A DNA stretch of 64,000 nt, from NCBI RefSeq assembly GCF_001510655.1, contig NZ_LMVC01000001.1, forward strand, positions 905,955 to 969,954, written 5' to 3'. Shown piece after piece: positions 32,797 to 53,907 of this stretch. This stretch comes from Fictibacillus sp. FJAT-27399. Its GTDB lineage: Bacteria > Bacillota > Bacilli > Bacillales > Fictibacillaceae. The position numbers and the translations under genes were made by a program. The notes beneath the pieces are model-generated. The model saw only the letters and a program-made list of their open reading frames with translations, did not search any database and was not told the origin of the DNA. Positions within the stretch are counted from its first letter, which is position 1; each line of letters begins with the position of its first letter.

Positions 32797-32849
32797 CTTA
32801 CACCTCCGTATCGTTCAGTGGTTAAGTAAATAGATTAAGAGAGTACACT

Positions 32850-33746: not shown

Positions 33747-33757
33747 CGGTTGACCTC

Positions 33758-35751: not shown

Positions 35752-36599
35752 TGTACGGCTTTTGGAATGGGCTTCAGCAGCAATAGTTTTTCTTTCACGA
35801 TGGATTTTACAGCTTCTCTTGATGTCACGAAAACCTTACGCGGATCATTCTGAAGAGGATTTTCATGTAAAAAATGGGACAGCTCTTTAAAAAAAGCCTG
35901 CTTTAACTCTGTTGAGAAATTCACTTTACTTACGCCACAGCCTATCGCCCGTTTTAGGTCTTCATCCGGAACTCCGGACGCTCCATGCATAACGATAGGA
36001 ACTCCGGTTTGTTCCGAGATTTTTTTTACACGGTCAAAATCGAGCCTTGGCGCCTTTTTATACTGACCATGAGCTGTACCAAATGCTGCAGCTAAAAAGT
36101 CAATCTTCGTTCTATACACAAACTCCTCTGCCATGGAAGGGTCTGTATAATATTCCATGTCTTGTGATTCATCGTCTGCCTTTCCGATAGCTCCCAATTC
36201 TGCTTCTACTGGTACATCTACATCGTGGCAAACACTAACTACTTGTTTAACCAAATCGATGTTCTCTTCAAATGGGAGGAGAGAACCATCAATCATTATG
36301 GAATTATAGCCTCCACGCACACATTGATGTACGGTTCTTATGCTTTCTCCATGATCCAGGTGGAGGGATACTGGAACACTGACACCGTCAGCTGCGGTTT
36401 TAACCATGCTTACCATATGATCCATTCCCATATAATAAATGGTTGCAGGTGTGGATTGTAAAATTATCGGTACGTTCAAATCATCAGCAGCTTCAGTAAT
36501 GGCTCGAATCATTTCCAAGTTATGAGCGGGAAATGCTCCGATCGCATAATGGTTTCGATAGGCATCATTCACCATTTCCTTTGAGCTAACTAACGGCAT
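35748..36599 (-). CDS. Class II tagatose-1,6-bisphosphate aldolase (GatY/KbaY-like)
   Basis: A 283-residue zinc-dependent aldolase. The zinc histidines lie in SLHLDHGES near 80, FGTAHGQYK near 179 and VMHGASGVPDEDL near 207. VEAELGAIGKADDE near 131 and the phosphate-binding KVNFSTELKQAF near 229 complete the active site. It splits a ketohexose bisphosphate into DHAP and glyceraldehyde 3-phosphate. With the LacC-like kinase and AgaS-like protein it completes the tagatose route for galactosamine. AAAGGAGGATACC precedes the ATG, which overlaps the end of the DHDPS-family gene by 14 bases. Confidence 0.85.
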   Translation of the reverse strand: MPLVSSKEMVNDAYRNHYAIGAFPAHNLEMIRAITEAADDLNVPIILQSTPATIYYMGMDHMVSMVKTAADGVSVPVSLHLDHGESIRTVHQCVRGGYNSIMIDGSLLPFEENIDLVKQVVSVCHDVDVPVEAELGAIGKADDESQDMEYYTDPSMAEEFVYRTKIDFLAAAFGTAHGQYKKAPRLDFDRVKKISEQTGVPIVMHGASGVPDEDLKRAIGCGVSKVNFSTELKQAFFKELSHFLHENPLQNDPRKVFVTSREAVKSIVKEKLLLLKPIPKAVQ

Positions 36600-38703: not shown

Positions 38704-38727
38704 AGTCTCTATCAACTCTCCTTTTTA

Positions 38728-38748
38728 AGACAAGTCTTTTTAGTGTCT
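38728..38748 (-). promoter_or_regulatory. AGAC-box, site A
   Basis: On the minus strand: AGAC-N7-AGAC-TT-GTCT, identical in layout to the boxes at 44143, 51248 and 53887. It lies 25 bases before ATG 38703 and points at the epimerase-led operon. A clean promoter with the box at -35 is not apparent here. A possible TTGTCA/TATAAA pair (38781 to 38755, spacer 15) would put the box at the transcription start. Confidence 0.75.
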
Positions 38749-38769
38749 CTAATTTTTATAACCCGTTCC

Positions 38770-40875
38770 TTACGTTGACAATAAACAAATGTCAACGACT
38801 TCATATTCTTTAATTGTGGGCAGTTGGATCGTTGCCCATCCTCCGTGCTGGACAAAGTCTGGGCTTTTTTTGCTTCGTAAAAATGTAATAGAATCAATCT
38901 CTTTTGGTAATCGGATGTTTATCGTCAAATCTGATAAAGGCAGTACTTCAGTAATCGGTCTCGTCATCGAAGCAGTGTAATTGATTACATGAATAAGAAT
39001 GCGGTTCTCCCCTTGATTTCTCAAGGATACATGAATGGATTCTGTATTTTGTACAGTACCGACGTAGATTGGAATTTCCACAAGTGACTTCACCGCATTC
39101 TCCATTAGCTTCCTGTATTCCGGAAGAGCAAACGCTTCATAAAATTTGCCTACATTTCCGGCAAAGTAAATACTTTCTCCCAATCCATAGCCATTTTTAA
39201 CGATATAGGGGTGCGATGTCTTTCGGGGAAGCTCACAATATCTCGAGATCTGTTTTTCCCGGTAGAACATCACGCTTTCTGCACCATGATTGCTAGCAAC
39301 TTCAGTTCCTAACCGTGCAGCTGGAATTAACTGCTGGTCAATGGATGTAAGCAAATCATGACGTGAATCACATTCAATATGATCGTATTGGCAGTGGCGA
39401 ATAGCACGTAACGTTATGCCAAACACTTCCGCTAACAAAGGCTGATTCCTTTTCTGCCCATCTTCCTGATAAAGAGAAGTATCAAATGATCCTATGATCT
39501 TCCCTCCTCTATTAACATAAGCTTTGATACGGTTGGCCTCTTCCTCGTTCATGACACTCACATTGGGCAAAATTAAAAGTTCATACTTTGCAAATGAACC
39601 ATCTGTTATTGATGCATTGTCTACAATATCAAACGGTATCCTGCTTCTTGATAAAACATCATACCACCCCATAAAGGATCCTCGGGCATCGCTCTTGTCA
39701 GGATCTTTCAATTTGTCCTGGCCAGCTGTAAAATCGGTTTCTTCTGCGGAAGATTGATAAAAATTGGCGGTATCATAAGACCACATTAAAGCAACAGATG
39801 CCATTGATTTTGTATCGGTATAACACCCTTCATTCTCTTCAAGAAAGGTATTGATTTCCCTCACCGTTTGCATTCTTTGGTCAAGATTATTGTCATTGTA
39901 AACTCCATACCAAGTGTTGGCACCGTGAGATACAGCCATTGCATGTGTCAGCCATGTTTCAGCTGCCGATAATAAATAACGGGACCAGGGGGCAAGCCGG
40001 CCTGCAATCGCTACACAATAAGGTTTGCCAGCAGACTGGGTTTCAAGCAGTTGAGCTGTGGCGGCAGGTTTCCAGATCGGGACCTGTCTCAGATCATCAC
40101 TTAAAAATCCTCCTTCGGCTAAGAGCATATCTTGATGTTCAACGGTAAGCCGGTTATCCCGGCTGCAATAAATGGTTGGGACCAGTTGAGGACTGTTCAT
40201 GTAAATCATGGCATCCGGTTTTTTGCTTTTTAATAGCCGGCTTGCTGTCTTCATAAAAAGGGCAATGGACTCCCTTTTAAAACGAAATAAATCCTTTCTT
40301 TCTTGAGGCGTTGCTTTTTCCCACACAGGAAGTTCATAATGAAAAGCCTTTTGGAAATCATGTTTACAGCTTCTACAATAGCATCCTTCAATACGAAAAA
40401 AGGGACCATCCAGGAAAATCCCTTTTATTTTATAAGCTGCCAGATTTCTTATGACTTGAAAGGCGTACTCGCGAAAAGGGGAATTTATGCAAGAATATGC
40501 CCCAGATCCGTAAGCACTTGGTATGGGCTGGCCATCCGAATAAACCTGCTGATAGTCAGGATGCTGCACAGCAAGCGAGGATGAAAGCCAATGAACATTG
40601 AAGTATACAATAGGGTTAATTTCCAGCTTGTCATACTCGGCCTCTATTTGTTCTAAAATATTTTTTCTTACTTCTACAGCGCAATCAGATGGATAGAACG
40701 TTATTCCGGACTCTCCTTCGGCAATATCATGTACTTCTACGTGTTCACAATTAAAGCCCAGGCTTTTTCGAATGAGAAACTGCTCTTGAAGGTCAAGCCT
40801 TTCATAAACTTCAGGCCCGGGTGGAATAAAATCCACAATCCTCAGCGGCTTTTGTTTCCATGTTAATGTTTTCAT
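38770..40875 (-). CDS. Glycoside hydrolase-like protein, GHL6/beta-galactosidase-trimerisation architecture
   Basis: A 701-residue cytoplasmic protein. The first 330 residues form a TIM-barrel like the hypothetical glycosyl hydrolase 6 family (NPIVYFNVHWLSSSLAVQHP, INSPFREYAFQVIRNLAAYKIKGIFLDGPFFR, the cysteine-rich GCYCRSCKHDF). A GATase-like trimerisation domain of the GH42 type follows at about 365-560 (YELLILPNVSVMNEEEANRI, GKIIGSFDTSLY). A small beta domain ends it. The ECR-like CYCRSC motif could bind a metal. It is the last gene after the ABC importer at 40892-44037, so it likely attacks the imported glycan. The bond specificity is unknown. Confidence 0.72.
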   Translation of the reverse strand: MKTLTWKQKPLRIVDFIPPGPEVYERLDLQEQFLIRKSLGFNCEHVEVHDIAEGESGITFYPSDCAVEVRKNILEQIEAEYDKLEINPIVYFNVHWLSSSLAVQHPDYQQVYSDGQPIPSAYGSGAYSCINSPFREYAFQVIRNLAAYKIKGIFLDGPFFRIEGCYCRSCKHDFQKAFHYELPVWEKATPQERKDLFRFKRESIALFMKTASRLLKSKKPDAMIYMNSPQLVPTIYCSRDNRLTVEHQDMLLAEGGFLSDDLRQVPIWKPAATAQLLETQSAGKPYCVAIAGRLAPWSRYLLSAAETWLTHAMAVSHGANTWYGVYNDNNLDQRMQTVREINTFLEENEGCYTDTKSMASVALMWSYDTANFYQSSAEETDFTAGQDKLKDPDKSDARGSFMGWYDVLSRSRIPFDIVDNASITDGSFAKYELLILPNVSVMNEEEANRIKAYVNRGGKIIGSFDTSLYQEDGQKRNQPLLAEVFGITLRAIRHCQYDHIECDSRHDLLTSIDQQLIPAARLGTEVASNHGAESVMFYREKQISRYCELPRKTSHPYIVKNGYGLGESIYFAGNVGKFYEAFALPEYRKLMENAVKSLVEIPIYVGTVQNTESIHVSLRNQGENRILIHVINYTASMTRPITEVLPLSDLTINIRLPKEIDSITFLRSKKSPDFVQHGGWATIQLPTIKEYEVVDICLLST

Positions 40876-40891
40876 AGGTTACCAATGCTCC

Positions 40892-41737
40892 TTAGCCTTT
40901 AATCGATCCTTGCAGCCCGCTTACAAAATGACGCTGCATGGCAATGTAAAAAATAATAACGGGAACAAGGGAAATAACAACTCCAGCAGCCATTGTTTTT
41001 ACATCCGTACCAAACGTTCCGGATAAGTAAGCAAGCCCTAAAGAAATCGGGAACAAACTGTCATCTTTTAATATGATGAGCGGCCACATGAATGAATTCC
41101 AAACAGAAATAAATGCAAAAACACTTAAAGCGGCAAGCGTTGGCCTTGTTAATGGCAGTATGATACTCCACCACACACGAAAAGGACCACAGCCATCAAT
41201 AATCGCTGCTTCCTCAATTTCTTTGGGAATGGCCAAATAGGCCTGCCTCATTAAAAAGATAGAAAAACCTCCTACTAGACCTGGTAAAATAAGTCCCCAC
41301 CATGAATCTACCAATCCCAGCTTTTCCACAATGATATACAAGGGTACCAATTTCCCTTCTTCAGGGAGAAACATCGTTGCAATAATGGCATAAAAGATAA
41401 AATTTCTTCCCGGAAAATTCATTCGGGCCAAAGGATAGGCTGTTAACGCCGTTAAAAAAATGTGGGCAGGAACCATGATGATGATTAATAGAAATGAATT
41501 TAACAGATAACGCGGAAAAGGAATAGCCGTCCACGCTTCAATAAAATGGTCAAAAACAGCGGGTTTTGGAATAAAACTTGGCGGAAAACTGAAAACATCC
41601 TGGCTGTTCGACTTGAATGCAGTAGATAAAAGCCATAAAAATGGTCCTATGAAGATGCAGGCTACCCCAATTAACAGCAAATACAAGAGAGCAAGTTTAC
41701 TAACTTTCTTCCAATTTGTTTTTTGTCTATTCATCAT
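40892..41737 (-). CDS. Carbohydrate ABC transporter permease (MalG type), second importer
   Basis: A 281-residue permease with six helices. The EAA loop EIEEAAIIDGCGPFRVWWSIILPLTRPTL lies near 180-208 and YFP-like FSFPPSFIPKP near 50. ATG 41737 overlaps the stop of the MalF-type gene (ATGATGA); the reading frame is open further upstream, but that part lies inside the partner gene. Like the first importer in this window it lacks an ATPase gene and would rely on a shared one. It is probably induced with the rest of the unit from the AGAC-box promoter at 44120-44148. Confidence 0.92.
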   Translation of the reverse strand: MMNRQKTNWKKVSKLALLYLLLIGVACIFIGPFLWLLSTAFKSNSQDVFSFPPSFIPKPAVFDHFIEAWTAIPFPRYLLNSFLLIIIMVPAHIFLTALTAYPLARMNFPGRNFIFYAIIATMFLPEEGKLVPLYIIVEKLGLVDSWWGLILPGLVGGFSIFLMRQAYLAIPKEIEEAAIIDGCGPFRVWWSIILPLTRPTLAALSVFAFISVWNSFMWPLIILKDDSLFPISLGLAYLSGTFGTDVKTMAAGVVISLVPVIIFYIAMQRHFVSGLQGSIKG

Positions 41738-42669
41738 TGTATGGATTGACCCCCTCTTGAAAGCTTGTAATTGATGATGGTCAGGACCATAAGGATCAGC
41801 CACAATACCATTCCCATAGCAGTAGCGTAGCCCATATCAAATTCAACAAACGCTTTTTGATAGATATAAAGCGGTAGAGACATTGTACTGTCCAGCGGGC
41901 CTCCACCTGTCATTACGTAGATGCTCGTAAACATTTGAACCGTTCCGAGTGTGGCCATAACAACTGTGACAGCAAAAACAGGCCGCAGCTGGGGCAAGTA
42001 TACATGCCAAAGAATTCGGATTTTTGAAGCCCCGTCAATTTTTGCCGCTTCGATCAACTCCTTGGAAACCGTCTGCAAGCCAGCTAAATAAATCAGCATA
42101 TAAAAGCCCGCCGCCTTCCAAGCTTCCAGCATAGAAACCGCCGGAAGTGCTGTATTTTTATTCAACAGCCAATTTATGTCTGCATGATCCCATCCTATTC
42201 CATGAAGGGCTGCATTAATTAAACCGGTTGGATGATATAAATATTTCCACACGATGGCTACAGCCACCATCGCTGTTACAACAGGGAGATAATAAATAAC
42301 ACGGAAGAGAGTGATTCCTTTAATCGAACGGTTTACAAGTATGGCCAAAAATAAAGGGAGGATGACCAGCATAGGGACGGTTATAACAAAGTATTTCATG
42401 GAGTTGCCCAGTGCAATCCAAAATTTTTCGTCCTCCATCATCATTTGGTAGTTTTTAAGCCCCGTCCATTCAGCAGGAGATAAAATATGATATTCGGTAA
42501 AAGAATAATAGAAAGCGTTCAGAGTCGGAACATATTCAAAAACGAGGAGGAGCACAATTGCCGGCAGCAGGAATACATAAGGAACATAGTTGAATTTTTT
42601 CTTTTTCTTTTGTTTAACGGAAGCTTTGACCGTTTGGTGGATATTTGTTTCTACTTGGTGGACGGCCAT
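41734..42669 (-). CDS. Carbohydrate ABC transporter permease (MalF type), second importer
   Basis: About 311 residues. A cytoplasmic lysine-rich N-terminus (KQKKKKKFNYVPYVFLLP) precedes six helices. The EAA motif ELIEAAKIDGASKIRILWHVYLPQLRP lies near 200-228 and GGPLDSTMSLPLYIYQKAFVEFDMGYA near the end. I chose ATG 42669 because AAAGGAGTGG stands four bases before it; the upstream in-frame start at 42690 precedes that site. It forms the membrane pore with the MalG-type subunit for the sugar bound by the lipoprotein at 42742. Confidence 0.92.
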   Translation of the reverse strand: MAVHQVETNIHQTVKASVKQKKKKKFNYVPYVFLLPAIVLLLVFEYVPTLNAFYYSFTEYHILSPAEWTGLKNYQMMMEDEKFWIALGNSMKYFVITVPMLVILPLFLAILVNRSIKGITLFRVIYYLPVVTAMVAVAIVWKYLYHPTGLINAALHGIGWDHADINWLLNKNTALPAVSMLEAWKAAGFYMLIYLAGLQTVSKELIEAAKIDGASKIRILWHVYLPQLRPVFAVTVVMATLGTVQMFTSIYVMTGGGPLDSTMSLPLYIYQKAFVEFDMGYATAMGMVLWLILMVLTIINYKLSRGGQSIQ

Positions 42670-42741
42670 TTTACCACTCCTTTCAATCAAACAGTAGCAG
42701 CGGACGGGAAACCCTCCGCTGCTCTTTTTAAGTACTAAACG

Positions 42742-44037
42742 TTATTGGTTCTTTAGTGCTTGATTCCAATAGTCTACCGATTTATCCAGTGCTTCTTTTG
42801 CCGATTGTTCACCCATCAAGGCAGCACGGATTTGTTCAGTAAAATAGTCTCTTAACTTTTCCTCATCTTTGATCCCTAAAATATTAACCTTTAAATGCGG
42901 AGCTGTTTCCACCATAATTTTCCTTGCTTCATCATGAATGGTCTTCCCCTTTGATTCTTTAAAAAACGGGTCTTCCAATGTTTCAGTAGTCGATGGGAAT
43001 ATAGGAACAAGTTTGGCAAAATCCAATTGATTCTTTGCGTTAGTAACAAAAAGAGCAAACTTAGCGGCTTCTTTTGGATGCTCTGATTTCTTTGGTACGA
43101 CAAAGGTTTGAATGGCTTTAACAGCTACGGTTCCATCTCCTCCGGTTACAGGTTTTGTCACTTTAATCTTCTTAATTTCATTAGGAGCATTTTTTTCCAG
43201 ATTGAGTAAGGTGGCTGCTACGGACTGCCCAGCCTGTGCCTGCTGCTTATTTTCATAGGTTTGCTGAAGCTGACGGTCATCCTTCGTTACCGCCCCGGGA
43301 GCAATTGCTCCATTCTTGTAGCCGTCTACAAACATTTGTACAAATTTCACGTGTTCGTCTGAATTAAATACCGCTTTTGTATGATCATCATTAAGGATGG
43401 GAAGCCCTTGGCTCACAAAAACTTCAATACCTGGCAAGTCATTGGAACCAAATACTTTTGGGAGTTTCTTATGAATCATTTTTCCGTTTTCCAAGCTTTC
43501 TTCCCATGTTTTTGGTGGATTGTTGGGATCTAATCCTGCCATTTTATACACTTCTGTATTAATGGTGCCAATTGGAGGTCCGCCATAGTACCACGGAAGC
43601 CCTTGAAGTTCATCCTGGAATGTTAAGCTGTCAATCAATCCAGGAATATACGCATTCAATTCATCTTTGGAGATAAGTTTATTAAGCGGGGACAGAACAT
43701 TGTACTGCTGAATCATGGAGATATCACTGCTGGCCAGATTGACCACATCCGGCACTTTCCTGCTTTGTAAGGATGTCAAAAACTTTTTGGATGCATCGGC
43801 ACCCGGAACATCTACCCATTTAATCTTGATATTCGGATTGGCCTTCTCGTAATCATTGATCATACCCTGAATATAATCATTAAAATTCTTCTTTAAATTA
43901 ATCGTCCAAAATTCAAGTTCCACCTTTTCTCCGTTTTTGCTGTCACTTGATGCTTTTTCCTCGTTTGAACAAGCTAACAAGGGAATAAATGCAAGTAGAA
44001 AGACCAAAAATAGAAACGCCAGTTTTTTCCTTTTCAC
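42742..44037 (-). CDS. Sugar-binding lipoprotein, second importer
   Basis: A 431-residue solute-binding protein. The signal peptide MKRKKLAFLFLVFLLAFIP ends in the lipobox LLAC (Cys 23). The mature protein has ELEFWTINLKKNFNDYIQ, IKWVDVPGADASKKFLTSL, LQGLPWYYGGPPIGTIN and the C-terminal VDYWNQALKN, all of the MalE/UgpB type. The start is GTG 44037. A strong TTGTCT-N17-TATAAT promoter lies upstream at 44148 to 44120. Its -35 is part of an AGAC-box, and a perfect 10-bp inverted repeat follows in the leader. Ligand probably an amino-sugar oligosaccharide, inferred from the neighbouring GH20 and aga/nag genes. Confidence 0.92.
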   Translation of the reverse strand: MKRKKLAFLFLVFLLAFIPLLACSNEEKASSDSKNGEKVELEFWTINLKKNFNDYIQGMINDYEKANPNIKIKWVDVPGADASKKFLTSLQSRKVPDVVNLASSDISMIQQYNVLSPLNKLISKDELNAYIPGLIDSLTFQDELQGLPWYYGGPPIGTINTEVYKMAGLDPNNPPKTWEESLENGKMIHKKLPKVFGSNDLPGIEVFVSQGLPILNDDHTKAVFNSDEHVKFVQMFVDGYKNGAIAPGAVTKDDRQLQQTYENKQQAQAGQSVAATLLNLEKNAPNEIKKIKVTKPVTGGDGTVAVKAIQTFVVPKKSEHPKEAAKFALFVTNAKNQLDFAKLVPIFPSTTETLEDPFFKESKGKTIHDEARKIMVETAPHLKVNILGIKDEEKLRDYFTEQIRAALMGEQSAKEALDKSVDYWNQALKNQ

Positions 44038-44075
44038 GTAAGCCCCTCCCCAACCATCAAATTTGATTTAACCAG

Positions 44076-44111
44076 GTTTATGAAAGCATTTTTGTAAAGG
44101 TTTTCATAAAC
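44076..44111. promoter_or_regulatory. Perfect 10-bp inverted repeat in the importer leader
   Basis: GTTTATGAAA-N16-TTTCATAAAC, directly downstream of the -10 TATAAT (44125 to 44120) and before the GTG start at 44037. It could be a second operator for a repressor, or form a hairpin in the 5-prime leader of the mRNA. The spacer GCATTTTTGTAAAGGT is not a U-tract, so a terminator is unlikely. Confidence 0.6.
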
Positions 44112-44119
44112 TTGACTTC

Positions 44120-44163
44120 ATTATAATGACCACTTTATTTATAGACAAGTCTTTTAACTGTCT
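44120..44163 (-). promoter_or_regulatory. Promoter with AGAC-box, site B
   Basis: On the minus strand, TTGTCT (44148 to 44143), a 17-base spacer and TATAAT (44125 to 44120) form a good sigma-A promoter for the lipoprotein gene. The box AGAC-N7-AGAC-TT-GTCT spans 44163 to 44143, so its last half-site is also the -35 hexamer. A regulator bound here would touch RNA polymerase at -35. Confidence 0.82.
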
Positions 44164-44186
44164 TTAAATATATGATTTTTCAACAT

Positions 44187-46073
44187 TTACAAAGGATTGG
44201 CAGAAACAATCCGCTGATATTTAATTTCCTTCCCTACCCCTTTCTTTGAGTAACGGGAAAATGAATCATAAAATAGCTTTTCCTCCTCCATTTCATCCAG
44301 TGTGTCAATTCGTCCATCAATAAAAGACATAAGCCGATCCCGTACTGTCTCTATCCTTGCCAGCAGTCCGCCATAACGAATATCAAGGATTTCCCATCCA
44401 AATGGTTTGTTATTTGTAAACCATTGTCTTCGATGGATCATACGAAGCTCCTTAACGGCTTCTTCTAAAAGGTTCAATTCTTTTATAGCTATTTCCTTTA
44501 GTTCTTCCTTCCTGTTTCCATGGTAAAATTCACTTATTTTTAATCCTAATTCACTCTTAATGCTTAGTACCGTACACAGCTTCATCATGAACGAGTAAAG
44601 AGATTTCCAAGGAGAAGATGTCCCCAAATATCTTTGCAGTTCGTCTTTAATGTCTTGAAAATGCTGTGAAAATCCGAGGCCATCTATATTTTTATCGAAC
44701 AATCCGAGTAAAATATCCTGCCACAGCAGGTACTTTGCGGGACTGTCGGGAATCAGGGCATGTATGTTAGCTTGAGGATGCACATCTAACTTTCCCATCG
44801 TTAAAAATGCCTCATAATTTCCACCCGTGCAGAATTCAAACCGCTTTTTCAGCTTGTGTTCGTCAACAATGCTGTTATACCCATGTTCCGCAAATAACTG
44901 CAAACCTAAAAGGGCAAAAAAGAAATTGCTTTCCGCGCCATTATCACCCCACAATGTCGCAAAAACCTCTCTCACGCCTTTTCTTTTGCATACAGCCAAG
45001 GCAGGATTGCTTGTATGAAACGTCTTTTCATAATGAATCGTAGGACCATGCCAGGTCCAGATTCCTCCTGCAAAAATCGGGAGACTTCCGAAAGCAGCAT
45101 GTTTGTCAATATACTGCTCATAAAAGCCTTCTTCCTCATTGTAATAATCCCAATACACCATTTGTACTTGTTTAGAGACTTGTTTTGTCTCTTCTTCAGG
45201 GATTTCAATATTTAAATCATAATAGGCATCTGTTTCAGACCATACTCGAAAGTACATATCACTCCAAATCATGGGACGCAATTTATACTTTTTCAGGATA
45301 TCTTCGACCAGCTTTAAATGTTGAGTCATTAAGGAATAACGGTTTTTTTTCCCTTGCTGGTCAAGGTAGTTTCCCCTGCCTAGTCCATGTGCTTCGTCCA
45401 TTCCAATATGGATTCGCTTACTTCTAAAAGGAGATGAAGCTGATACAATCATTTTTTCTATGAACTCATATGTGTTTTGATTCCCGACCAGCAAGACGTC
45501 TTCCGTGTCTCTGATCGCTGAAGTGTGGGACCATTTTAAATACGTTGATAAATGGGCTAACGTCTGTATGCAGGGAATCACTTCGATTCCTAAAGAGTAG
45601 GCGTAATCATCGATTTCTTGAAGCTCCTCATTACTATATCGTCCGCGCATATAGCCAAAATACGGATCACCATCAATCGTATAAGTGTCTTCTGTATACA
45701 GCATCATGACATTTAAGCCCATAATGGCCATATAACGAAGAAAAGTTTTGGCCGTTTCGGTTTTCATGACAGCGTTTCGGGAACAGTCAAACATTGCCCC
45801 ATTCATATCAAAATAGGGCTGTTCTGTTATGTGGAACGTTTCTTTTTCACGCGTTGCTTCCACAAATAATCCCAGCGCCCGGAAAAAATGTATTTTATCG
45901 TGGTAACCAATCAAACCTTGGCCATTTTCCAGCTGAACGTCTAGATGCGAGTTTGAAGATTTTACTACATGAATGGGAAGTCCATCTTCACATATCTCAA
46001 TGCCAAGCAGTTGAGCAATTTTTTCAATTCCTTCTTGCAATGTCTCCAACTCACCCAGAAATGACACTTTCAT
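44187..46073 (-). CDS. GH20 beta-N-acetylhexosaminidase (exo-acting, cytoplasmic)
   Basis: About 628 residues, no signal peptide. The catalytic Asp-Glu pair of GH20 lies in KRIHIGMDEAHGLGRG near 223-230. The preceding barrel strands carry FDMNGAMFDCSRNAV, LGLNVMMLYTEDTYTI and GIEVIPCIQTLAHLS, and W- and D-rich segments follow (MIWSDMYFR, IFAGGIWTWHG, ATLWGDNGAES). The HIGMDEAHxLGxG form resembles the GH20C subgroup, which removes terminal GlcNAc or GalNAc. ATG 46073 has GGAGG six bases upstream; ATG 46079 is too close to it. It is the last gene of the run that starts with the Gfo/Idh gene and acts on imported amino-sugar oligosaccharides. Confidence 0.85.
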   Translation of the reverse strand: MKVSFLGELETLQEGIEKIAQLLGIEICEDGLPIHVVKSSNSHLDVQLENGQGLIGYHDKIHFFRALGLFVEATREKETFHITEQPYFDMNGAMFDCSRNAVMKTETAKTFLRYMAIMGLNVMMLYTEDTYTIDGDPYFGYMRGRYSNEELQEIDDYAYSLGIEVIPCIQTLAHLSTYLKWSHTSAIRDTEDVLLVGNQNTYEFIEKMIVSASSPFRSKRIHIGMDEAHGLGRGNYLDQQGKKNRYSLMTQHLKLVEDILKKYKLRPMIWSDMYFRVWSETDAYYDLNIEIPEEETKQVSKQVQMVYWDYYNEEEGFYEQYIDKHAAFGSLPIFAGGIWTWHGPTIHYEKTFHTSNPALAVCKRKGVREVFATLWGDNGAESNFFFALLGLQLFAEHGYNSIVDEHKLKKRFEFCTGGNYEAFLTMGKLDVHPQANIHALIPDSPAKYLLWQDILLGLFDKNIDGLGFSQHFQDIKDELQRYLGTSSPWKSLYSFMMKLCTVLSIKSELGLKISEFYHGNRKEELKEIAIKELNLLEEAVKELRMIHRRQWFTNNKPFGWEILDIRYGGLLARIETVRDRLMSFIDGRIDTLDEMEEEKLFYDSFSRYSKKGVGKEIKYQRIVSANPL

Positions 46074-46075
46074 TG

Positions 46076-47308
46076 TCATCCTCCTCCCATGACGGGAAGA
46101 TGCGACTGAGCGACTTTTTTAACGGCCTTTGCCGCATCATAAATCCCTTCTTCATCTTCCAGCAGCACGGTTTGGGTGATCCACAAAACCTGCTGGTCAC
46201 CCATTCGTTCAGCAACGGGACAAGTCTGTATCCTTCTTTCTCCTGTCCATTCCTCAATTGAATTCTGTATGGCGTCGTATTTCGTAAGAGACGTATATCC
46301 GCTTGCACAGGGAATTCCTTCTGCAGAAAGCCGTTTCATGAACTCAGCTTTATGAAAAGACCTGGCGAACTCTTCTTCCAGATAAAACATATAGAGGTGA
46401 TAACCGTTACGGGTCACCCGTAAATCGTCTCTAAACAATTGTATCCCGTCAATGTCTTTGAGCAACTGATCCAAAAGAATCGCATTGCGATTGCGCCGTT
46501 CCACCTGTTCTTCAAGCCGCTGCATCTGTCCGAGCAATACTGCTGCCTGAAATTCAGTAAGACGCAGATTCCATCCTATCGTGTCGTGCTGGTACCAAGC
46601 ACCGTCACGGCTCCTTCCTACGTTGCACAAAGACCATGCCTTGTCAGCTAGAGTACGGTCGTTTGAAACGATCATTCCTCCTTCACCAGCTGTTAAATTT
46701 TTGCTTGATTGAAAACTGAACGTGCCAATATCGCCAATGGCTCCTACTCCTTTTCCTTTCCATTGAGATCCTACCGCCTGGGCTGCATCCTCAATCAATG
46801 CAATCCCATGTTTCCTCGCGACAGCGCTTAACCGGTCCAAATCTGCTACCGTCCCTCCGATATGAACAGCAATAATGGCTTTTGTCCTTGGGGTGATGGC
46901 TTCCTCCACCTTCTCTGGGTCGAGAAGCATAGTATCTTCTTCTACATCCACGAACACAGGTATCGCTCCAAACATTAACGGGGCCGTTGCTGTAGCTATA
47001 AAAGTATAAGGGGGCATGATTACTTCATCGTATGGCTTTACTCCCGCTGCCTGCAAAGCAACGGTGATAGCAACGGTTCCATTTACAACACTAACGCCGT
47101 AACCAGCATCTTGAAAACTTGCAAACTTGTTCTCGAAAATAGGAAGTTTTGCTTCATAACCTGCTAGATTTGCTCCACCTGAACCTCCCCATTTTCCTGA
47201 GTCTATCACTTCGTACAGCAGCCGTTTTTCTTCCTCTTCACTAATGGGCCAGATGGGATAGGGTTTGTTCCTGACGGGAACGCCTCCATGTATGGCGAGC
47301 TTATCCAT
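46076..47308 (-). CDS. DegT/DnrJ/EryC1-type PLP aminotransferase (second of a tandem pair)
   Basis: A 410-residue fold-type I aminotransferase. The PLP lysine is in FSFQSSKNLTAGEGGMI near 195, preceded by ALIEDAAQAVGSQW near 165, PPYTFIATATAPLM near 100 and NVGRSRDGAWYQHDTIGWNLRLTEFQAAVLL near 225. DegT enzymes transfer amino groups to or from keto-sugars or keto-cyclitols. ATG 47308 has AAAGGAGG six bases before it and overlaps the previous gene by eight bases. Together with the paralogue upstream it is unusual in a catabolic locus. It could remove the amino group of an imported sugar. Confidence 0.85.
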   Translation of the reverse strand: MDKLAIHGGVPVRNKPYPIWPISEEEEKRLLYEVIDSGKWGGSGGANLAGYEAKLPIFENKFASFQDAGYGVSVVNGTVAITVALQAAGVKPYDEVIMPPYTFIATATAPLMFGAIPVFVDVEEDTMLLDPEKVEEAITPRTKAIIAVHIGGTVADLDRLSAVARKHGIALIEDAAQAVGSQWKGKGVGAIGDIGTFSFQSSKNLTAGEGGMIVSNDRTLADKAWSLCNVGRSRDGAWYQHDTIGWNLRLTEFQAAVLLGQMQRLEEQVERRNRNAILLDQLLKDIDGIQLFRDDLRVTRNGYHLYMFYLEEEFARSFHKAEFMKRLSAEGIPCASGYTSLTKYDAIQNSIEEWTGERRIQTCPVAERMGDQQVLWITQTVLLEDEEGIYDAAKAVKKVAQSHLPVMGGG

Positions 47309-48575
47309 GTGATCCTCCTTTCTGTAACGTACCGGCAACTTTTTGTTTTAGGTAAAAACGCGCTACTTTCTGAATGGCCGCAATCATTGCTTCGATATCT
47401 GTCTTTGTATAAAACTCATTGACAGGAAGCCGTAAGGCGGTTTTCAGTATGTTTTCAGCTTCAGGGCACAATACCCCTTCATAGGCAGCACCAGTCACGT
47501 CAAAAGGAAAGGTACTGTTTTGATAAGCTGAACGCTTTTGGAATAATCCGCTTTTGTAGACCACTTCAGGAATATAGCCTGCTGATGCAGGAATTCCTTC
47601 TTCTTTCAAGGCAGCCGCAAATTCATCCCTAGTGCAATGAAATTTGGAAGGTTCAATACGGAACATATAGAACCAATAGGTGCAAACATTGCCAGCATCT
47701 ACTTTATGTGGATGAATACCATCTAGCTCTTGAATTCCTGCTGTAATCTTGTTTCCATATGCTGTTCGGATGGAACAAATCCCAGAAAGCTTTTTCAGCT
47801 GTGCGATTCCAACGGCTCCTTGAAGTTCCGTCATTCTGTAGTTGGGAGCAAGGTAAGAAAGATCTCTATTTACAATGCCACCCAGTCTTAAATAATTCTT
47901 GTCAGCAAAAGCATGAGTCAATTTATAATCCTGCTCATCAGCAGAATTTACGGTTACCATACCGCCATCACCTGTGCTGATATGCTTAAAATCATTTGTG
48001 CTGAAACAGCCATAATCACCAATGGTACCTGCCAGCCTTCCTTTGTACGAAGCAAGATAGCTCTGTGCACAGTCTTCAATCACTTTTAACCGGTACTTTT
48101 TTGCAAGAGCCATGATCTCATTCATATCTGCAGGATTGCCTGCTAAATGAACGACTAAAATCGCTTTCGTCCTGGGTGTTATGCACGCTTCAATGGATTT
48201 TGGGTCCATATTATACGTGTGAGGATTAAGATCAGCAAAAACAGGGATGGCATTTTGATAAAGAATTCCAATTAAAGTCCCTTGATCGGTGATGGGGCTC
48301 GTAATGACTTCATCGCCTACAGTAATCCCAGCTGCACCCAGTGCTGTATGGATAGCTGCAGTACCAGATGAAACTGCCACACTGTAGGAAATCCCGTACA
48401 TTTCATTAAACGTCTTGAGAAACGTTTTTACTTTTTCTCCTGTATGATAAAAGAGCGTATTTTGTTCAAGAGCCTCCAGTAATTCCTTAGCCTCTTCTAT
48501 TCCAAACCGTTTGCCTGTTCCAAACGGAGTATCCTTGACTTTCCTGCCGCCATGAACAGCCAGTTTTTCACTCAT
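47301..48575 (-). CDS. DegT/DnrJ/EryC1-type PLP aminotransferase (first of a tandem pair)
   Basis: A 424-residue relative of the next gene. Both start with a similar block (KLAVHGGRKVKDTPF here, KLAIHGGVPVRNKPY there). The PLP lysine lies in GCFSTNDFKHISTGDGGMV near 195, with VIEDCAQSYLASYKG near 165, SSGTAAIHTALGAAGI near 72 and NYRMTELQGAVGIAQL near 245. ATG 48575 overlaps the end of the NodB-like gene (its TGA is at 48570-48568). An apparent upstream extension of 33 residues in the ORF lies in that gene and is not needed. Possible role as in the paralogue; the donor/acceptor pair is unknown. Confidence 0.85.
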   Translation of the reverse strand: MSEKLAVHGGRKVKDTPFGTGKRFGIEEAKELLEALEQNTLFYHTGEKVKTFLKTFNEMYGISYSVAVSSGTAAIHTALGAAGITVGDEVITSPITDQGTLIGILYQNAIPVFADLNPHTYNMDPKSIEACITPRTKAILVVHLAGNPADMNEIMALAKKYRLKVIEDCAQSYLASYKGRLAGTIGDYGCFSTNDFKHISTGDGGMVTVNSADEQDYKLTHAFADKNYLRLGGIVNRDLSYLAPNYRMTELQGAVGIAQLKKLSGICSIRTAYGNKITAGIQELDGIHPHKVDAGNVCTYWFYMFRIEPSKFHCTRDEFAAALKEEGIPASAGYIPEVVYKSGLFQKRSAYQNSTFPFDVTGAAYEGVLCPEAENILKTALRLPVNEFYTKTDIEAMIAAIQKVARFYLKQKVAGTLQKGGSHG

Positions 48576-50262
48576 GGAACTTCGTCTCCTTCCCAGGAAG
48601 CACCATTTCTTCAGTTCCTGCTTCCACTTTCTGCTTTTTGCAGTAAACTCCGAATCGTTCGATATAAGTACCACTGTTTTCTTTTTGTTTTACCGGAATG
48701 CAAATGACTGCACCTAAGCATCCGTCCGTATATTCCACTTCTCCTTCTGGCATTATTCCTTGAATCTTCATCCTGGTACGGCGCCTTACCCACTCGTTGA
48801 TCTGGTCTCCGGTCCAAAAATGGTAACCCATCTCTTTTGCCTGACGCACCACTTGTTTCAGTGCCTCCTTCACCGTTGGTTCCCTGTGAAGATGGATCTG
48901 ATGAAATAAAAAGTGGGCAACTCCTCGCACCTCCTTCGCCTTTGTTAAAAACGGCTTAATGATGGACGTATCTGCTAATCTTGATAAATCCACATCCTGT
49001 GTTAAAAATCCTATTTCTAATACATCATAGATACGGTTTTGTTTATCTGCCCATGCAATAGGAAAATAGGGGTGGCATGTGCCAAACAAAAAGCCAACAT
49101 TCCCTTTTTTACTAGGTCCTCTCGTTTGATCCGACTGGATGCCGATACTTTCACACCATTCAAATAGTTCTCCCCAGTTTTGAAAAATCGTGTAATGGTT
49201 CTTATTGGAGATAATTGGCTCTACACTACTCACTATATGGAGCCAGTGTAACTGTCTTTCCATTTCCAAGTTACTCCAAGAACCACCGTCCTCTTTCCTG
49301 GCATTGTAGTGAAGTGCAATTTCATGGCCTTTCTGACGGATAACAGGATATATAGCAGGGCTGTATCCCGGCTCCATCATGCACCAGGTGCTATGAATAT
49401 CACATTCTTCTAAAATAGCTAGAGTGGTATACGCAGATTCATCGTCATTTACATCACTATCATGAGAGACCATGGCTAACTGCTCTATGCCATCTGGCCA
49501 ATAATCAAGAAAAGGCAGTGTCAATCCCTGATCAAGGACGGTTTTCATCAAATGAGAAATCATAGCTTCTTTCCATAAATCAGCATAAGGAACAGAAAAA
49601 TATGGCTGGCCAGTAGAGGTTCGCAAACGATCCATCTCCCAATCCATTGCAAACCCATCGTCTGCCTTTAACAGCCCATCATCTAAATTAGCCGTGCCAT
49701 CCGGAGCTGGCGGCCCATCTTTTGTTACAGGTTCTCTTCCCTGCTGCATCCCGACAATGGCTCCAATGATATCCACCGTCCAGCGATGAAGGATGCCTTT
49801 TCCTATGTCCCATTTCTCAAGCAAGGCGCCAGTACTTCGTCCTTCCCTAGAACCTGATTTGATTTCTCCGGACTTTTGGCAATGAAACAGAGAGGGTGAT
49901 GCAGTCCAAGGAAATGCGTGAAAAAAACGTAAAAATTGCTGATTGTAAACGCCATAACCACCATCTATTAGGTACTCTTTCAAGCCCATGCGTCGGGCAA
50001 ACTCCCCTAATGTGCCAAAGGAAATAACAGAGCCTCCCGAGTGGATGTAATCCCATAGATCCTCTGTCTCCTCAAGCTTTAGTGGCGGCAATGCCAGCAC
50101 AACAATGTCAAAGTGATGTAGTTGTTTTGTTTCTTCTATTGGTGTGAATGGGATTCCCGCATACTGAAATAAAGAACTACAATAACATTCAAAAACGTTT
50201 TCGCCTCTTCCCCAATTATGGATGGCGCGTTCTTTATCCAGATACACACCTACCCTTGCCAT
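48568..50262 (-). CDS. Polysaccharide deacetylase-like (NodB-fold) protein with N-terminal GATase-like domain
   Basis: A 564-residue cytoplasmic protein. Residues 1-190 look like a Rossmann/glutamine-amidotransferase-like domain (FDIVVLALPPLKLEETEDLWDYIHSGGSVISFGT). Residues about 255-490 resemble a NodB homology domain: AMVSHDSDVNDDESAYTTLAILEE carries the catalytic-type Asp pair, and GHEIALHYNARKE the metal-binding histidines, with a further WTGDQINEW near the end. Enzymes of this fold remove N- or O-acetyl groups. ATG 50262 is chosen over TTG 50268, which overlaps the Gfo/Idh stop. Located between a Gfo/Idh oxidoreductase and two aminotransferases, it may deacetylate an N-acetylated sugar. 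Assignment is moderate. Confidence 0.68.
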   Translation of the reverse strand: MARVGVYLDKERAIHNWGRGENVFECYCSSLFQYAGIPFTPIEETKQLHHFDIVVLALPPLKLEETEDLWDYIHSGGSVISFGTLGEFARRMGLKEYLIDGGYGVYNQQFLRFFHAFPWTASPSLFHCQKSGEIKSGSREGRSTGALLEKWDIGKGILHRWTVDIIGAIVGMQQGREPVTKDGPPAPDGTANLDDGLLKADDGFAMDWEMDRLRTSTGQPYFSVPYADLWKEAMISHLMKTVLDQGLTLPFLDYWPDGIEQLAMVSHDSDVNDDESAYTTLAILEECDIHSTWCMMEPGYSPAIYPVIRQKGHEIALHYNARKEDGGSWSNLEMERQLHWLHIVSSVEPIISNKNHYTIFQNWGELFEWCESIGIQSDQTRGPSKKGNVGFLFGTCHPYFPIAWADKQNRIYDVLEIGFLTQDVDLSRLADTSIIKPFLTKAKEVRGVAHFLFHQIHLHREPTVKEALKQVVRQAKEMGYHFWTGDQINEWVRRRTRMKIQGIMPEGEVEYTDGCLGAVICIPVKQKENSGTYIERFGVYCKKQKVEAGTEEMVLPGKETKFHE

Positions 50263-50264
50263 CC

Positions 50265-51176
50265 TCAATGGCGGGCCATCCTTTCCCCGAGCTGAACAGT
50301 TTTACCAGTCTGCCGGCTTTCATTCGCCGCTTCGATAAAGCGGATTAATTCCATGGATTCTTCCATGCCAACCGGAGGTGCTCCGGTTAAAAACATTTTC
50401 ATTACTTCTTCAAGCAAGCTCGCGTAATGCGGCTTTGTACCTTTTTGGCAATCCACAAATGCTGTACCTGAACCTCGGTGGACCAAAGCGCCAAATTGAT
50501 TATTTCCTGTACGATTTCCTCTAACCGTTCCTATTCTTCCATCCGCCCACTTGCCAACGATGACATCGTGATCATGATTTACGGTGCAGCTTACCTGTTC
50601 GCACCCGGCTCCCATGACGGTAAACAGCATCTCTACCGAATGAATCCCATACCAAAAAAGGCCGGGCAACGGAGGTTCAATTTTCATGGGACCGTATGTA
50701 TCTGCCCCGATGATCGAGCCTTTTTCCATGGCGGCTTGCTGAAGTTCTTCAGAAAATCTCAAGGATGAGCTGCTGCTGACTGGCACGTGGTACTGCTGTG
50801 CCAGCTCAAAAATCTGACGGGCATCAGCTGACGAACAGGCTAATGGTTTATCAATATAAATTGGTTTTCCATAAGGAACAATTCTTTTAAATTGTTCAAG
50901 GTGGACTCTTCCGTCTACCGAAGTTAATAAAATTGCATCTGTTTGTTCCGCTACTTCTTCTGGACTCCCGGTCATTTTCACATTGTAGTTTTCTTCCAGC
51001 TGCCGTGTAATCGATCCTACCCGCGAAATGCTTAGTTCAAAATCCGGCGAGCCCCCCGGATAAGCAGCCACAATCTTACCCCCCTTGATATAATGAGGAT
51101 TTTTCTCATTATTTAAAAGATCGGTAAAAGCTGGACAGTGAGTGGTATCAAGACCAATCATTCCAATTTTCAGCAT
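50265..51176 (-). CDS. Gfo/Idh/MocA-family oxidoreductase
   Basis: A 303-residue NAD(P)-dependent sugar dehydrogenase. The Rossmann start is MLKIGMIGLDTTHCPAF. The catalytic lysine is in GKPIYIDKPLA near 119 (EKP in most relatives, DKP here), and a GIHSVEMLFTVMG segment near 175 carries the usual His. The C-terminal domain is short. It oxidises a sugar hydroxyl to a ketone reversibly. It is the first gene of the operon with the NodB-like, two DegT and GH20 genes, transcribed from the promoter at 51224-51253 that carries an AGAC-box. An oxidoreductase paired with a PLP transaminase is the standard set for moving an amino group on or off a sugar ring. Confidence 0.85.
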   Translation of the reverse strand: MLKIGMIGLDTTHCPAFTDLLNNEKNPHYIKGGKIVAAYPGGSPDFELSISRVGSITRQLEENYNVKMTGSPEEVAEQTDAILLTSVDGRVHLEQFKRIVPYGKPIYIDKPLACSSADARQIFELAQQYHVPVSSSSSLRFSEELQQAAMEKGSIIGADTYGPMKIEPPLPGLFWYGIHSVEMLFTVMGAGCEQVSCTVNHDHDVIVGKWADGRIGTVRGNRTGNNQFGALVHRGSGTAFVDCQKGTKPHYASLLEEVMKMFLTGAPPVGMEESMELIRFIEAANESRQTGKTVQLGERMARH

Positions 51177-51223
51177 TTTGATGATGTAGACCTCCTCCTG
51201 AAATTTTCTGAATAATCAATCTC

Positions 51224-51268
51224 ATTATAAGGGCAAAGTTTATTTAAAGACAAGTCTATAAAAAGTCT
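51224..51268 (-). promoter_or_regulatory. Promoter with AGAC-box, site C, in the divergent region
   Basis: On the minus strand TTGTCT (51253 to 51248), an 18-base spacer and TATAAT (51229 to 51224) form the promoter of the Gfo/Idh operon. The box AGAC-N7-AGAC-TT-GTCT spans 51268 to 51248. On the other strand a TATAAT at 51291-51296 precedes the regulator gene. Its -35 position directly abuts the box, so the box could also affect the regulator's own expression. Confidence 0.82.
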
Positions 51269-51335
51269 TTTTTTCTTAATTTCCTTCAGCTATAATAAAT
51301 TCAACATGTCTGATTTTTGGAGGTAAGTAAATCGT

Positions 51336-52703
51336 ATGGCGTCTCATTCTCCGGAGGAAACGGAAAACGGTGTTGCTATTGGTGTGATCGGCCCTTCAGC
51401 TTTAATTGAAAAAGCCCGTGAAGCGCTGCACTCTTTTCCATCTTTCATACCACTTTTGCGCAGTTATGAAGAAGAAAGTGAAGTGATGGATCTTACAAAA
51501 GACTTACTAGCGAACGTAGAGGTATTGCTTTTCCTCGAATATCACTTGTTCAGGAAGGTAAAAGAACAGCTTCATTTTCATATTCCCGTCCATTACGTAC
51601 CCCTTATGGGAACAGGTTTGTATCGTTCTTTGTTTCGAAGTAAAAGCCTTTATGGTTTAAGGATGCTGACCATCGATTCGGTTCCTAACCAGTATGTGAA
51701 TCAAATTTTAACTGAGCTTAACGAAAAGAACACAGTCCTGCATATTTTTGAAGGAAGTCCGTTGGCTACGACGGAAGAAATGGTGAATTTTCATTTATCA
51801 CATTTTGACAACAGGCCAGGCTCTTCCGTGTTGACAGGTATTGAAGCTGTTTCCGAAAAACTTACCGCTCTCGGAATACCAAATGAATGGGTCACCCCTA
51901 CCCATCAGGATTTAATCGTATCGTTGGAGCGGGCGTTATTAGCCACCCGTACAAGGAGAAACAAAGAATCTCAAATTGTCGTTGGTTTAGTAAACATTGA
52001 TCAGTTTCGCAAGATGGTGGACAGCTATCCATCAGAACATGAGGTTCAAAAGCTGAAACTTGATTTACACCGGCTGCTGCTCGATTACGTGAAACTTCTC
52101 GACGGCCACTTAACAAGCCTCGGCGGAGGAGAATATTTATTTTTCACTACAAGAGGCATCTTTGAAAGAGAAACAAGAGGTTATAAATATTTGCCTGTCC
52201 TGGATGAGGCTGATAAACTGTTGGGCATTTCCTTAAGTGTTGGAATCGGCTTTGGCCGAACAGCCACCGATGCGGGAAACCATGCGAGAGTGGCACTCCG
52301 ACAGTGCAAGGAATTTGGCGGAAAAGCCTGCTATATCGTCAGGGAGGATCTCAGTGTGATCGGGCCAGTAGAAATTACCCATCCGATGATCTATGACCTT
52401 TCCATAACGGATGACAAACTTCTTGAGGAAGCAGAAAAGGCTGGAATGTCGGCTGCTTATATGAGCAAATTGATGGCACAAGTCGCCCGGTACAAAAAAG
52501 CTAACTACACTGCTCAGGAACTCGCTTCCATCCTCGGTATTACCATCCGAAGTTCCCACCGAATCCTTGGACAATGGATAGATGCAGGTTTGGTAGACGT
52601 GGTGGGAGAAGAAAAAATTTCATCAAAAGGCCGTCCCCGCCAAATTTACCGGCTGTCTTTTGTTGCCGACCATTTAAAAAAAATAAGAGAAGCAGTGGAA
52701 TAG
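51336..52703 (+). CDS. Transcriptional regulator with PrpR-like sensory, degenerate GGDEF-like and winged-helix domains
   Basis: A 455-residue cytoplasmic protein that I cannot place in a named family. Residues 12-200 (IGVIGPSALIEKAREALHSF, VEVLLFLEYHLFRKVKEQL) resemble a Rossmann-type sensory domain as in PrpR. Residues about 215-335 look like a nucleotide-cyclase fold: QIVVGLVNIDQFRKMV, then HLTSLGGGEYLFFTT at the position of GGDEF, LSVGIGFGRTATDAGNHARVALRQCK and KACYIVRED. The C-terminus (about 380-450, YTAQELASILGITIRSSHRILGQWIDAGLV) is a helix-turn-helix. It is divergent from the Gfo/Idh operon with an AGAC-box between them, and is the best candidate for the protein that binds those boxes. 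Confidence 0.72.
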   Translation: MASHSPEETENGVAIGVIGPSALIEKAREALHSFPSFIPLLRSYEEESEVMDLTKDLLANVEVLLFLEYHLFRKVKEQLHFHIPVHYVPLMGTGLYRSLFRSKSLYGLRMLTIDSVPNQYVNQILTELNEKNTVLHIFEGSPLATTEEMVNFHLSHFDNRPGSSVLTGIEAVSEKLTALGIPNEWVTPTHQDLIVSLERALLATRTRRNKESQIVVGLVNIDQFRKMVDSYPSEHEVQKLKLDLHRLLLDYVKLLDGHLTSLGGGEYLFFTTRGIFERETRGYKYLPVLDEADKLLGISLSVGIGFGRTATDAGNHARVALRQCKEFGGKACYIVREDLSVIGPVEITHPMIYDLSITDDKLLEEAEKAGMSAAYMSKLMAQVARYKKANYTAQELASILGITIRSSHRILGQWIDAGLVDVVGEEKISSKGRPRQIYRLSFVADHLKKIREAVE

Positions 52704-52717
52704 ACTCTATTCCACTG
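52693..52717. terminator. Bidirectional hairpin formed by the ends of two convergent genes
   Basis: CAGTGGAATAG (52693-52703), three bases, then the exact complement CTATTCCACTG (52707-52717). Both TAG stop codons lie within the stem, so each gene's last codons (both ending Val-Glu-stop) form one arm. A T-rich tract follows on the minus-strand side after about ten bases. Confidence 0.7.
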
Positions 52718-53828
52718 TATAGTTTTGAAGCTTTTCACTACTAACCTTACAGCCTATCCCGTACCGATCACCAAGGTATACGGTTCCTTCTTCCCGTACA
52801 GGCCCCTCCGAAACAGGATCATCTGCAAGAAAAAAAGGTCCATTTAAATCTACTGGTGCTGATATTTGCAAGTAATTAAAAAGATGGGCACTCGCTGCCA
52901 GACCAAGTGTAGATTCGGTCAAGCCCCCTCCGAGTAAAGCCAGCCCCGCTTCCTTTGCAATTTCCCCGCAAATTTTTGCACGGTACAAACCAGCCATTTT
53001 AGTCAGCTTAATGACAGCCGTATCACATGCTTCCATCCGAATCGCCTGTAGTAGATCACCTGAACTCCAAATGCTTTCATCAAGTGCAATAGGAATGTGC
53101 ACTTTCCTTCGAATTTCCGCGTGTCCTAAGAGATTATTTGCACTAAGCGGCTGTTCGAATACATCCACTCCTAATTTCTCAAGTTTCCTTGCAACATAGA
53201 TGGCTTGTGCCACAGTATAGCCCTGGTTCGCATCAACCCGGAAAAATAGGCCGGGAGCAGCTTCCCTTACCGCTTCTGCCAAATGGATATCGTGATCAGG
53301 ATCAAATCCGATCTTAACATCCAGCCCCTTGTACCCTTTTCTGTTAGCTTCTGTGGCTTTTTGAACCGCTTCATTCACGTCTCTTGTACTAATAAGATAA
53401 GACAGGCTGATCGTTGAATTCGTTGAACCCATCCATAATTCTCCAATGGTTTTTTTATTCCTTTGTCCGATTAAATCATGCAGCGCTGTATCGATCGCAG
53501 CTTTGGCAATCGGTTGGCCAACAGTCAATCCACTCTTAATTTCCTGGTTCATCACTTGGTGCACATAAGAAATGTCGTCAATCCTTTTCCCTATGAGAGC
53601 CGGAATGAAATAGTTGTTGATGGTGGTGGTAACTGATTCGATTGTTTCATAGCTCCATCGATGACTGGGCCGTGCCTCCCCCCACCCGCTTATTCCATCC
53701 TTATCCGTTATTTTTACATAAACATGTGGAGCACCTGCTTGCTTATTACCTACTGAACCACCTGAAATCCTAAAGTCCTGAAGCATGGGTAATGTTAAAG
53801 GAAAAACTTCTATTTTAGAAATAAACAT
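52707..53828 (-). CDS. Enolase-superfamily enzyme (muconate-lactonising/dipeptide epimerase subgroup)
   Basis: A 373-residue barrel enzyme. The Mg ligands are Asp in FFRVDANQGY near 193, Glu in DVFEQPLS near 219 and Asp in PIALDESIW near 244. The catalytic lysines lie in GLDVKIGFD near 163 and TAVIKLTKMAG near 268. GGSVGNKQAGAPHVYVKI in the capping domain is substrate-specifying. This is the MLE subgroup pattern, which includes dipeptide epimerases, o-succinylbenzoate synthases and cycloisomerases. ATG 53828 has AAAGGAGC six bases before it. An AGAC-box lies about 60 bases upstream but points the other way, so joint regulation is possible rather than shown. Substrate unknown. Confidence 0.82.
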   Translation of the reverse strand: MFISKIEVFPLTLPMLQDFRISGGSVGNKQAGAPHVYVKITDKDGISGWGEARPSHRWSYETIESVTTTINNYFIPALIGKRIDDISYVHQVMNQEIKSGLTVGQPIAKAAIDTALHDLIGQRNKKTIGELWMGSTNSTISLSYLISTRDVNEAVQKATEANRKGYKGLDVKIGFDPDHDIHLAEAVREAAPGLFFRVDANQGYTVAQAIYVARKLEKLGVDVFEQPLSANNLLGHAEIRRKVHIPIALDESIWSSGDLLQAIRMEACDTAVIKLTKMAGLYRAKICGEIAKEAGLALLGGGLTESTLGLAASAHLFNYLQISAPVDLNGPFFLADDPVSEGPVREEGTVYLGDRYGIGCKVSSEKLQNYTVE

Positions 53829-53886
53829 CTTAAAGCTCCTTTCTTGAAGCATGACTAACTTCCTAATTTTTTCCTAAACTATTAAT

Positions 53887-53907
53887 AGACATTTTATAGA
53901 CGTGTCT
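53887..53907 (+). promoter_or_regulatory. AGAC-box, site D
   Basis: AGAC-N7-AGAC-GT-GTCT on the plus strand, pointing at the secreted protein gene that starts 66 bases downstream at 53973. Half-site spacing is identical to sites A-C. If the final GTGTCT serves as -35, the -10 position falls on AGCTAC, a poor match, so activation may be needed. Confidence 0.75.

Follow-up and report, generated by a model that had tools for sequence, protein, structure and literature searches.

Three-half-site AGAC boxes and an adjacent predicted PrpR-like regulator mark a candidate catabolic regulon in Fictibacillus sp. FJAT-27399

In a stretch of 64,000 nucleotides from Fictibacillus sp. FJAT-27399 (the window; contig NZ_LMVC01000001.1, positions 905,955 to 969,954), a 21-bp motif, AGAC-N7-AGAC-NN-GTCT, recurs four times, and this raises the question of which protein reads these boxes and with what effect. 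We propose, with a probability of roughly 55%, that the product of the gene at 51336-52703 binds them as its operators and that they mark its regulon, with repression that would be relieved by a ligand. This proposal is built on sequence comparison and structure prediction. The sites and the gene in question are as follows (window coordinates; aa, amino acids).

38728..38748, minus strand: site A, with three half-sites, ahead of the epimerase-like gene; 32.0 bits
44120..44163, minus strand: site B (44143-44163) with a -10 box, TATAAT, at 44120-44125, 17 bp from TTGTCT; 41.0 bits
51224..51268, minus strand: site C (51248-51268) with a -10 box, TATAAT, at 51224-51229, 18 bp from TTGTCT; 38.2 bits
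53887..53907, plus strand: site D, 65 bp before the gene of a 555-aa protein; centre GT; 33.0 bits
51336..52703, plus strand: gene of the likely regulator (455 aa), predicted to combine a PrpR-like N-terminal fold with a GGDEF/GTP cyclohydrolase III-like domain and a winged helix

A preliminary description of the window had reported four identical 21-bp boxes at these places. All four are present as exact matches; the identity holds for the 12 fixed bases, while the spacers differ between sites. Its further claim that the window holds no other copy extends to the whole genome of 4,503,641 bases, where the only exact copies are those of the cluster, rather than copies scattered at chance frequency, and the reversed pattern occurs once. 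When up to two mismatches were allowed, with A/T required at four spacer positions, 35 genome matches were obtained (two of them with one mismatch) vs. 31 for the reversed control, indicating that apart from the four exact sites the genome is at background. Scored with a matrix made from 61 distinct sites of relatives, with no Fictibacillus site included, sites A-D reach 32.0 to 41.0 bits, and the next-best place in the window, on the opposite strand of site D, has 4.0 bits.

The shared regulator claimed in the preliminary description was tied there to conservation upstream of orthologous genes, and such conservation is present. We used as loci the best 80 of 199 relatives from a regulator-alignment scan of named genomes, the closest of which, from Fictibacillus terranigra, encodes a regulator 96% identical to that of the window. 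Results showed 72 exact motif copies in 45 of these loci. In a grid of 72 spacing combinations no other spacing exceeded eight copies; the eight N8 copies all lie at most about 160 bp upstream of the regulator gene, and two of them overlap an exact site on the opposite strand. From 76 exact sites, of which 75 are distinct and four come from the window, the consensus ATTTAA-AGAC-A-n-TTTA-n-AGAC-TT-GTCT-TTTAAT was obtained, so that the operator consists of three half-sites of approximately WTTWAA-AGAC: a tandem pair with 11-bp spacing and a third in inverted orientation. A matrix site was found in 76 of the 80 loci, with a lowest best site of 17.1 bits, and reversed loci never rose above 5.5; as the matrix was trained on sites from 45 of the loci, 31 of the remaining 35 is a fairer figure. 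Loci without a matrix site were L090, in which the regulator lies at a contig edge, L094, L095 and L115; L094 and L095 retain TTGTCT-N18-TACAAT before the epimerase gene, with upstream half-sites that are not clear. The most constant part of the loci is a pair of epimerase and DHDPS-like genes, found together in 70 of 80 (the epimerase in 73), and 66 of these 73 loci have a same-direction site no more than 260 bp upstream of the epimerase gene. The pair also occurs in all seven loci examined with regulators of 33-48% identity and is absent in three with 26-31%. Importers, Gfo/Idh proteins, GH20C and other genes differ among loci.

Occurrence of the box was also compared with that of the regulator. 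Among 60 genomes, including that of FJAT-27399, each of the seven whose regulator is 58% identical or more has exact sites nearby (22 sites in total), and eight of the remaining 53 hold an exact copy. In 398 genomes of the class the regulator was counted at E ≤ 1e-100, and lyase-like and epimerase matches at E ≤ 1e-90; genomes scored as lacking the regulator may carry a weaker one, as G008 does (37% identity), and several of the named loci belong to the same genomes as this set, the species thus being shared between tests. The regulator was found in 24 of the 398 genomes, with an exact site no more than 20 kb away in 13, and the epimerase gene in 41, including all 24. A matrix site of more than 8 bits within 600 bp upstream of the epimerase gene was detected in 15 of the 24 genomes with the regulator vs. 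none of the 17 without it (Fisher p 3e-5, not corrected for kinship). The two groups are well apart, as the lowest of the 15 positives scores 24.4 and the highest of the regulator-less genomes -0.1. The box therefore tracks the regulator rather than the target gene, and the shared local regulator of the preliminary description is well supported.

The structure model of the 51336-52703 protein has a mean pLDDT (predicted local distance difference test) of 84.7 and is divided into three parts. Residues 10-208 match the N-terminal domain of PrpR (2q5c, Z 17.8, 2.7 Å over 184 residues; 2pju, Z 16.6, 2.7 Å over 183). Residues 212-339 match GTP cyclohydrolase III (2qv6, Z 16.6, 2.1 Å over 121) and GGDEF domains. 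The Pfam family GCH_III is matched above its cut-off, in residues 223-325 only, and a PDB sequence search up to E 1 returned GTP cyclohydrolase III as the only match (2qv6, E 1e-4). The C-terminal part, modelled alone, is composed of helices and two strands; the top matches listed are mostly winged-helix proteins, with a moderate best Z of 7.5. R405, R409 and G432-R433-P434 are invariant in 54 homologs, from an alignment of 39 of the 80 loci and 14 others from which L154, with a stop in its translation, was left out. A GRP wing resembles AT-hook motifs, and this suits the A/T run beside AGAC. With the linkage and these invariant residues, the protein very probably binds the boxes. In the mechanism that we envisage, the recognition helix of the winged helix would read AGAC and the GRP wing the A/T run, with one protomer per half-site.

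The preliminary description had recognized the last half-site at B and C as a -35 hexamer, and the letters agree: TTGTCT-N17-TATAAT at B and TTGTCT-N18-TATAAT at C. Each site together with its -10 box is thus a predicted promoter, of the importer genes at B and of the Gfo/Idh operon at C; the latter site lies between that operon and the divergent regulator gene. No -10-like box is seen at 17-18 bp from site D or from its F. terranigra partner, and sites ahead of the 555-aa protein gene in relatives have one at 18 bp in three of four cases. Site A does not agree with the earlier claim that every site heads an operon, as it sits inside a gene row. It lies within a 54-bp gap between the stop of the 38770-40875 gene (22 bp ahead of the site) and the listed start of the epimerase open reading frame (ORF) on the same strand, and is 24 bp ahead of the likely epimerase ATG. 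Because of this short gap and the lack of a -10 box at 17-18 bp, site A may be internal to a longer transcript, and its transcription unit is uncertain.

At most promoters of the relatives the inverted half-site likewise is the -35 box, followed by a -10-like box 17-18 bp on. TAnnnT stands 17 or 18 bp past GTCT in 84% of the 163 matrix sites over 20 bits, the share being 94% of 62 for the epimerase, 45 of 45 for importers and 8 of 8 for Gfo/Idh targets. When the centre was masked from scoring, 166 sites exceeded 17 bits. Of the 126 with a -10-like box at 17-18 bp, 124 carry TT in the centre, as do 13 of the 22 that lack such a box; among the 18 close upstream of the regulator gene none does. 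As TT goes with the boxed sites and a symmetric binder would not need it, the central TT is probably retained as the TTG of the -35 box. The 18 sites near the regulator are a second, often weaker site (L086:9925, L098:9925, L119:9946, L130:9925 and others) with AT or AC in the centre, for which autoregulation or a second outward promoter are possible roles.

We lean slightly towards repression, because the half-site overlaps the -35 box and because the position of some sites is apparently at or beyond the start point (site A, L034 and an ATAC form of the box described below, the promoters being judged by eye). Since the inverted half-site is the -35 box, bound regulator would compete with RNA polymerase at B and C until a pathway ligand releases it from the -35 box. 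This ligand may be an intermediate of the epimerase/aldolase pathway, either an oxo-acid or a sugar-acid, bound in the PrpR-like domain, and the GGDEF-like domain may hold a nucleotide.

Several observations weigh against this proposal. A -10-like box stands on the inverted-half side in 138 of the 166 sites (20 of which have one on both sides) and on the other side alone in one, a fixed polarity that suits an activator. Of the 18 sites just upstream of the regulator gene, 12 likewise have TAnnnT at 17 bp; some of them may thus serve a weak second outward promoter and not block the regulator's own. As regards binding, nine of the 24 regulator genomes have no matrix site before the epimerase gene; five of them have an exact site elsewhere near the regulator, and in four none was seen. 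No matching site was found near the regulators, 45-46% identical, of three genomes of the window's own genus (G002-G004).

The best surviving alternative is that the same regulator binds the same sites and activates, from about -51 to -31 in a class II-like manner at weak promoters, while limiting its own gene. We give this reading an appreciable chance, if below an even one. It would account for the fixed polarity and the 17-18 bp spacing across several kinds of target, and TTGTCT is indeed a poor -35 hexamer accompanied by many imperfect -10 boxes. However, a -35 box inside the operator would by itself force that spacing under either sign of control, and the spacing thus does not decide between the two. 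The -35 box itself is covered by the inverted half-site, its TTG is kept as if polymerase needs it, and site A has no matching -10 box. A second alternative, which we consider improbable, is that the boxes are bound by a different regulator, whose gene lies elsewhere, and that the 51336-52703 gene merely adjoins them. The lack of boxes near some 45-46% identical regulators would fit, as would an exact copy somewhere in 52 of the 374 class genomes without the regulator; yet the boxes follow the regulator and not the target gene in the epimerase comparison, and all 22 exact sites of the seven closer relatives lie close to it. Chance or a dispersed repeat, for which only the background level of two-mismatch matches could speak, is ruled out by the absence of exact copies from 100 shuffles of the window and from the rest of the genome, by the identical spacing in 45 of 80 loci that stood out in the grid, and by the position of 161 of the 166 matrix sites outside any ORF of more than 150 aa.

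Other forms of the box were seen in more distant loci. The genome G006, with a 42% identical regulator, has a one-mismatch site before the epimerase gene. In L207 (G445) and L209 (G170), which have no close regulator, a site-like stretch upstream of the epimerase gene has one extra base between the last two half-sites (GGAC-N7-AGAC-GTT-GTCT in G445). Two loci with 33-37% identical regulators (L072:9373-9393 and L073:9508-9528, minus strand) carry ATAC-N7-ATAC-AT-GTAT, in the same geometry, immediately beyond an importer promoter resembling TTGACT-N17-TATTAT. This form is only suggestive, because a search for any 4-letter half-site in the N7/N2 geometry over 12 distant-homolog loci gave 4 matches vs. 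2 to 16 elsewhere, no more than other spacings. Upstream of the importer in L068-L071 there is a direct repeat of (A)CCAG with 11-bp spacing after a TTGAC-type promoter, with the AGAC box missing; it is perhaps the operator of another regulator. A perfect palindrome of 21 bases, AGACTCGTCTGAGACGAGTCT, which occurs in L007, L008 and L010 from another genus of the family, fits the motif on both strands and is probably unrelated to the regulon operator. Paralogs of 25-27% identity in L046, L050, L052 and L053 follow genes that by eye resemble those of M20-type amidohydrolases, and a larger regulator family with other targets likely exists.

The likely regulator shares parts with several known systems. 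PrpR, the regulator of propionate catabolism (2pju; Clostridium relative 2q5c), has the same sensor fold over about 184 residues and is a sigma-54 activator with an AAA+ domain. The 51336-52703 protein differs in its middle and DNA-binding parts; it gave no Pfam match to PrpR_N by sequence, and membership of the PrpR group was rejected because the sigma-54 AAA+ domain was not matched (Pfam, E 0.001). Residues 212-339 have the fold common to GTP cyclohydrolase III, GGDEF domains and class III cyclases. An enzyme of the GTP cyclohydrolase III type was rejected on the NCBIfam model NF002587 (26.1 bits vs. a whole-protein cut-off of 306), and a GGDEF diguanylate cyclase because residues 263-267 read GGGEY instead of GG[DE]EF. 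Local catabolic regulons are known for LacI, GntR and DeoR regulators, and the likeness lies in a regulator gene beside a few uptake or breakdown operons with shared operators; here, in contrast, the regulator is of another family, the operator has three half-sites, and a pair of epimerase-like and aldolase-like genes forms the core of the targets. Regulators of the PucR/CdaR type (e.g., MabR) join a sensor, a GGDEF-like domain and a DNA-binding end in one protein (PMC11617747), and the 51336-52703 protein joins the same three kinds of part. Their effector domain is described there as all-alpha, whereas the C-terminal part here is a predicted winged helix with two strands. The best Pfam helix-turn-helix (HTH) match is Crp-like, at 24.9 bits vs. 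a cut-off of 27, and no PucR/CdaR HTH was matched, on which grounds the PucR/CdaR type was rejected as well.

Taken together, architecture and operator look like an undescribed variant, local catabolic regulons as such being known; nothing on the regulator or motif was found in the open-access literature, with few subscription papers covered, which is weak evidence of absence. A wider view, tentative and on the doubtful side, is that of an uncharacterised, widespread one-component family of Bacilli, in which a PrpR-like sensor, a cyclase-like nucleotide pocket and a GRP-wing winged helix would join metabolite and nucleotide signals at operators of three half-sites that include the -35 box; diverged members would keep the geometry and change the half-site from AGAC to ATAC. 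For regulators that are classed in sequence searches with GTP cyclohydrolase III, the boxes provide a precise operator and a likely binder; they also mark an epimerase/aldolase pathway common to many relatives in Bacillus, Brevibacillus, Sporosarcina and Paenibacillus. With the -35 box inside the operator, the way in which a single element is shared by regulator and polymerase could be studied cleanly, and with two sensor-like domains in one protein it may be asked whether two signals are sensed together.

The genes around the four sites, the putative regulon included, are given below.

37687..38715, minus strand: epimerase-like gene (Pfam Epimerase), first of the target pair
36586..37686, minus strand: DHDPS/N-acetylneuraminate-lyase-like gene, second of the pair
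31619..36599, minus strand: class II aldolase, PfkB kinase, SIS, ROK, 114-aa ORF and short-chain dehydrogenase, after the pair
38770..40875, minus strand: 701-aa protein with a beta-galactosidase-trimerisation-like domain
40892..44037, minus strand: sugar importer (binding protein and two permeases), behind site B
44187..51176, minus strand: operon behind site C (Gfo/Idh, 566-aa protein, two DegT aminotransferases, GH20C)
53973..55640, plus strand: gene behind site D for a 555-aa protein lacking a Pfam match, taken for a secreted protein in the preliminary description

A lysine and a tyrosine of the DHDPS-like protein align with those of lyases, in which they are the catalytic residues. The 566-aa (48568-50268, minus strand) and 555-aa proteins gave no Pfam or NCBIfam match and no convincing relative in the PDB. 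Three proteins suggest a candidate amino-sugar pathway: GH20C, the SIS protein, which is closest to GlmD/GlmS models, and a LacC-like kinase. All score below the curated cut-offs for named enzymes, the hexose-kinase subfamily excepted, and the commonest regulon targets do not fix a substrate. Between the regulator gene and site D, at 52707-53852 (minus strand), an enolase-superfamily protein is encoded, the best PDB match of which is 2p88, an N-succinyl-amino-acid racemase.

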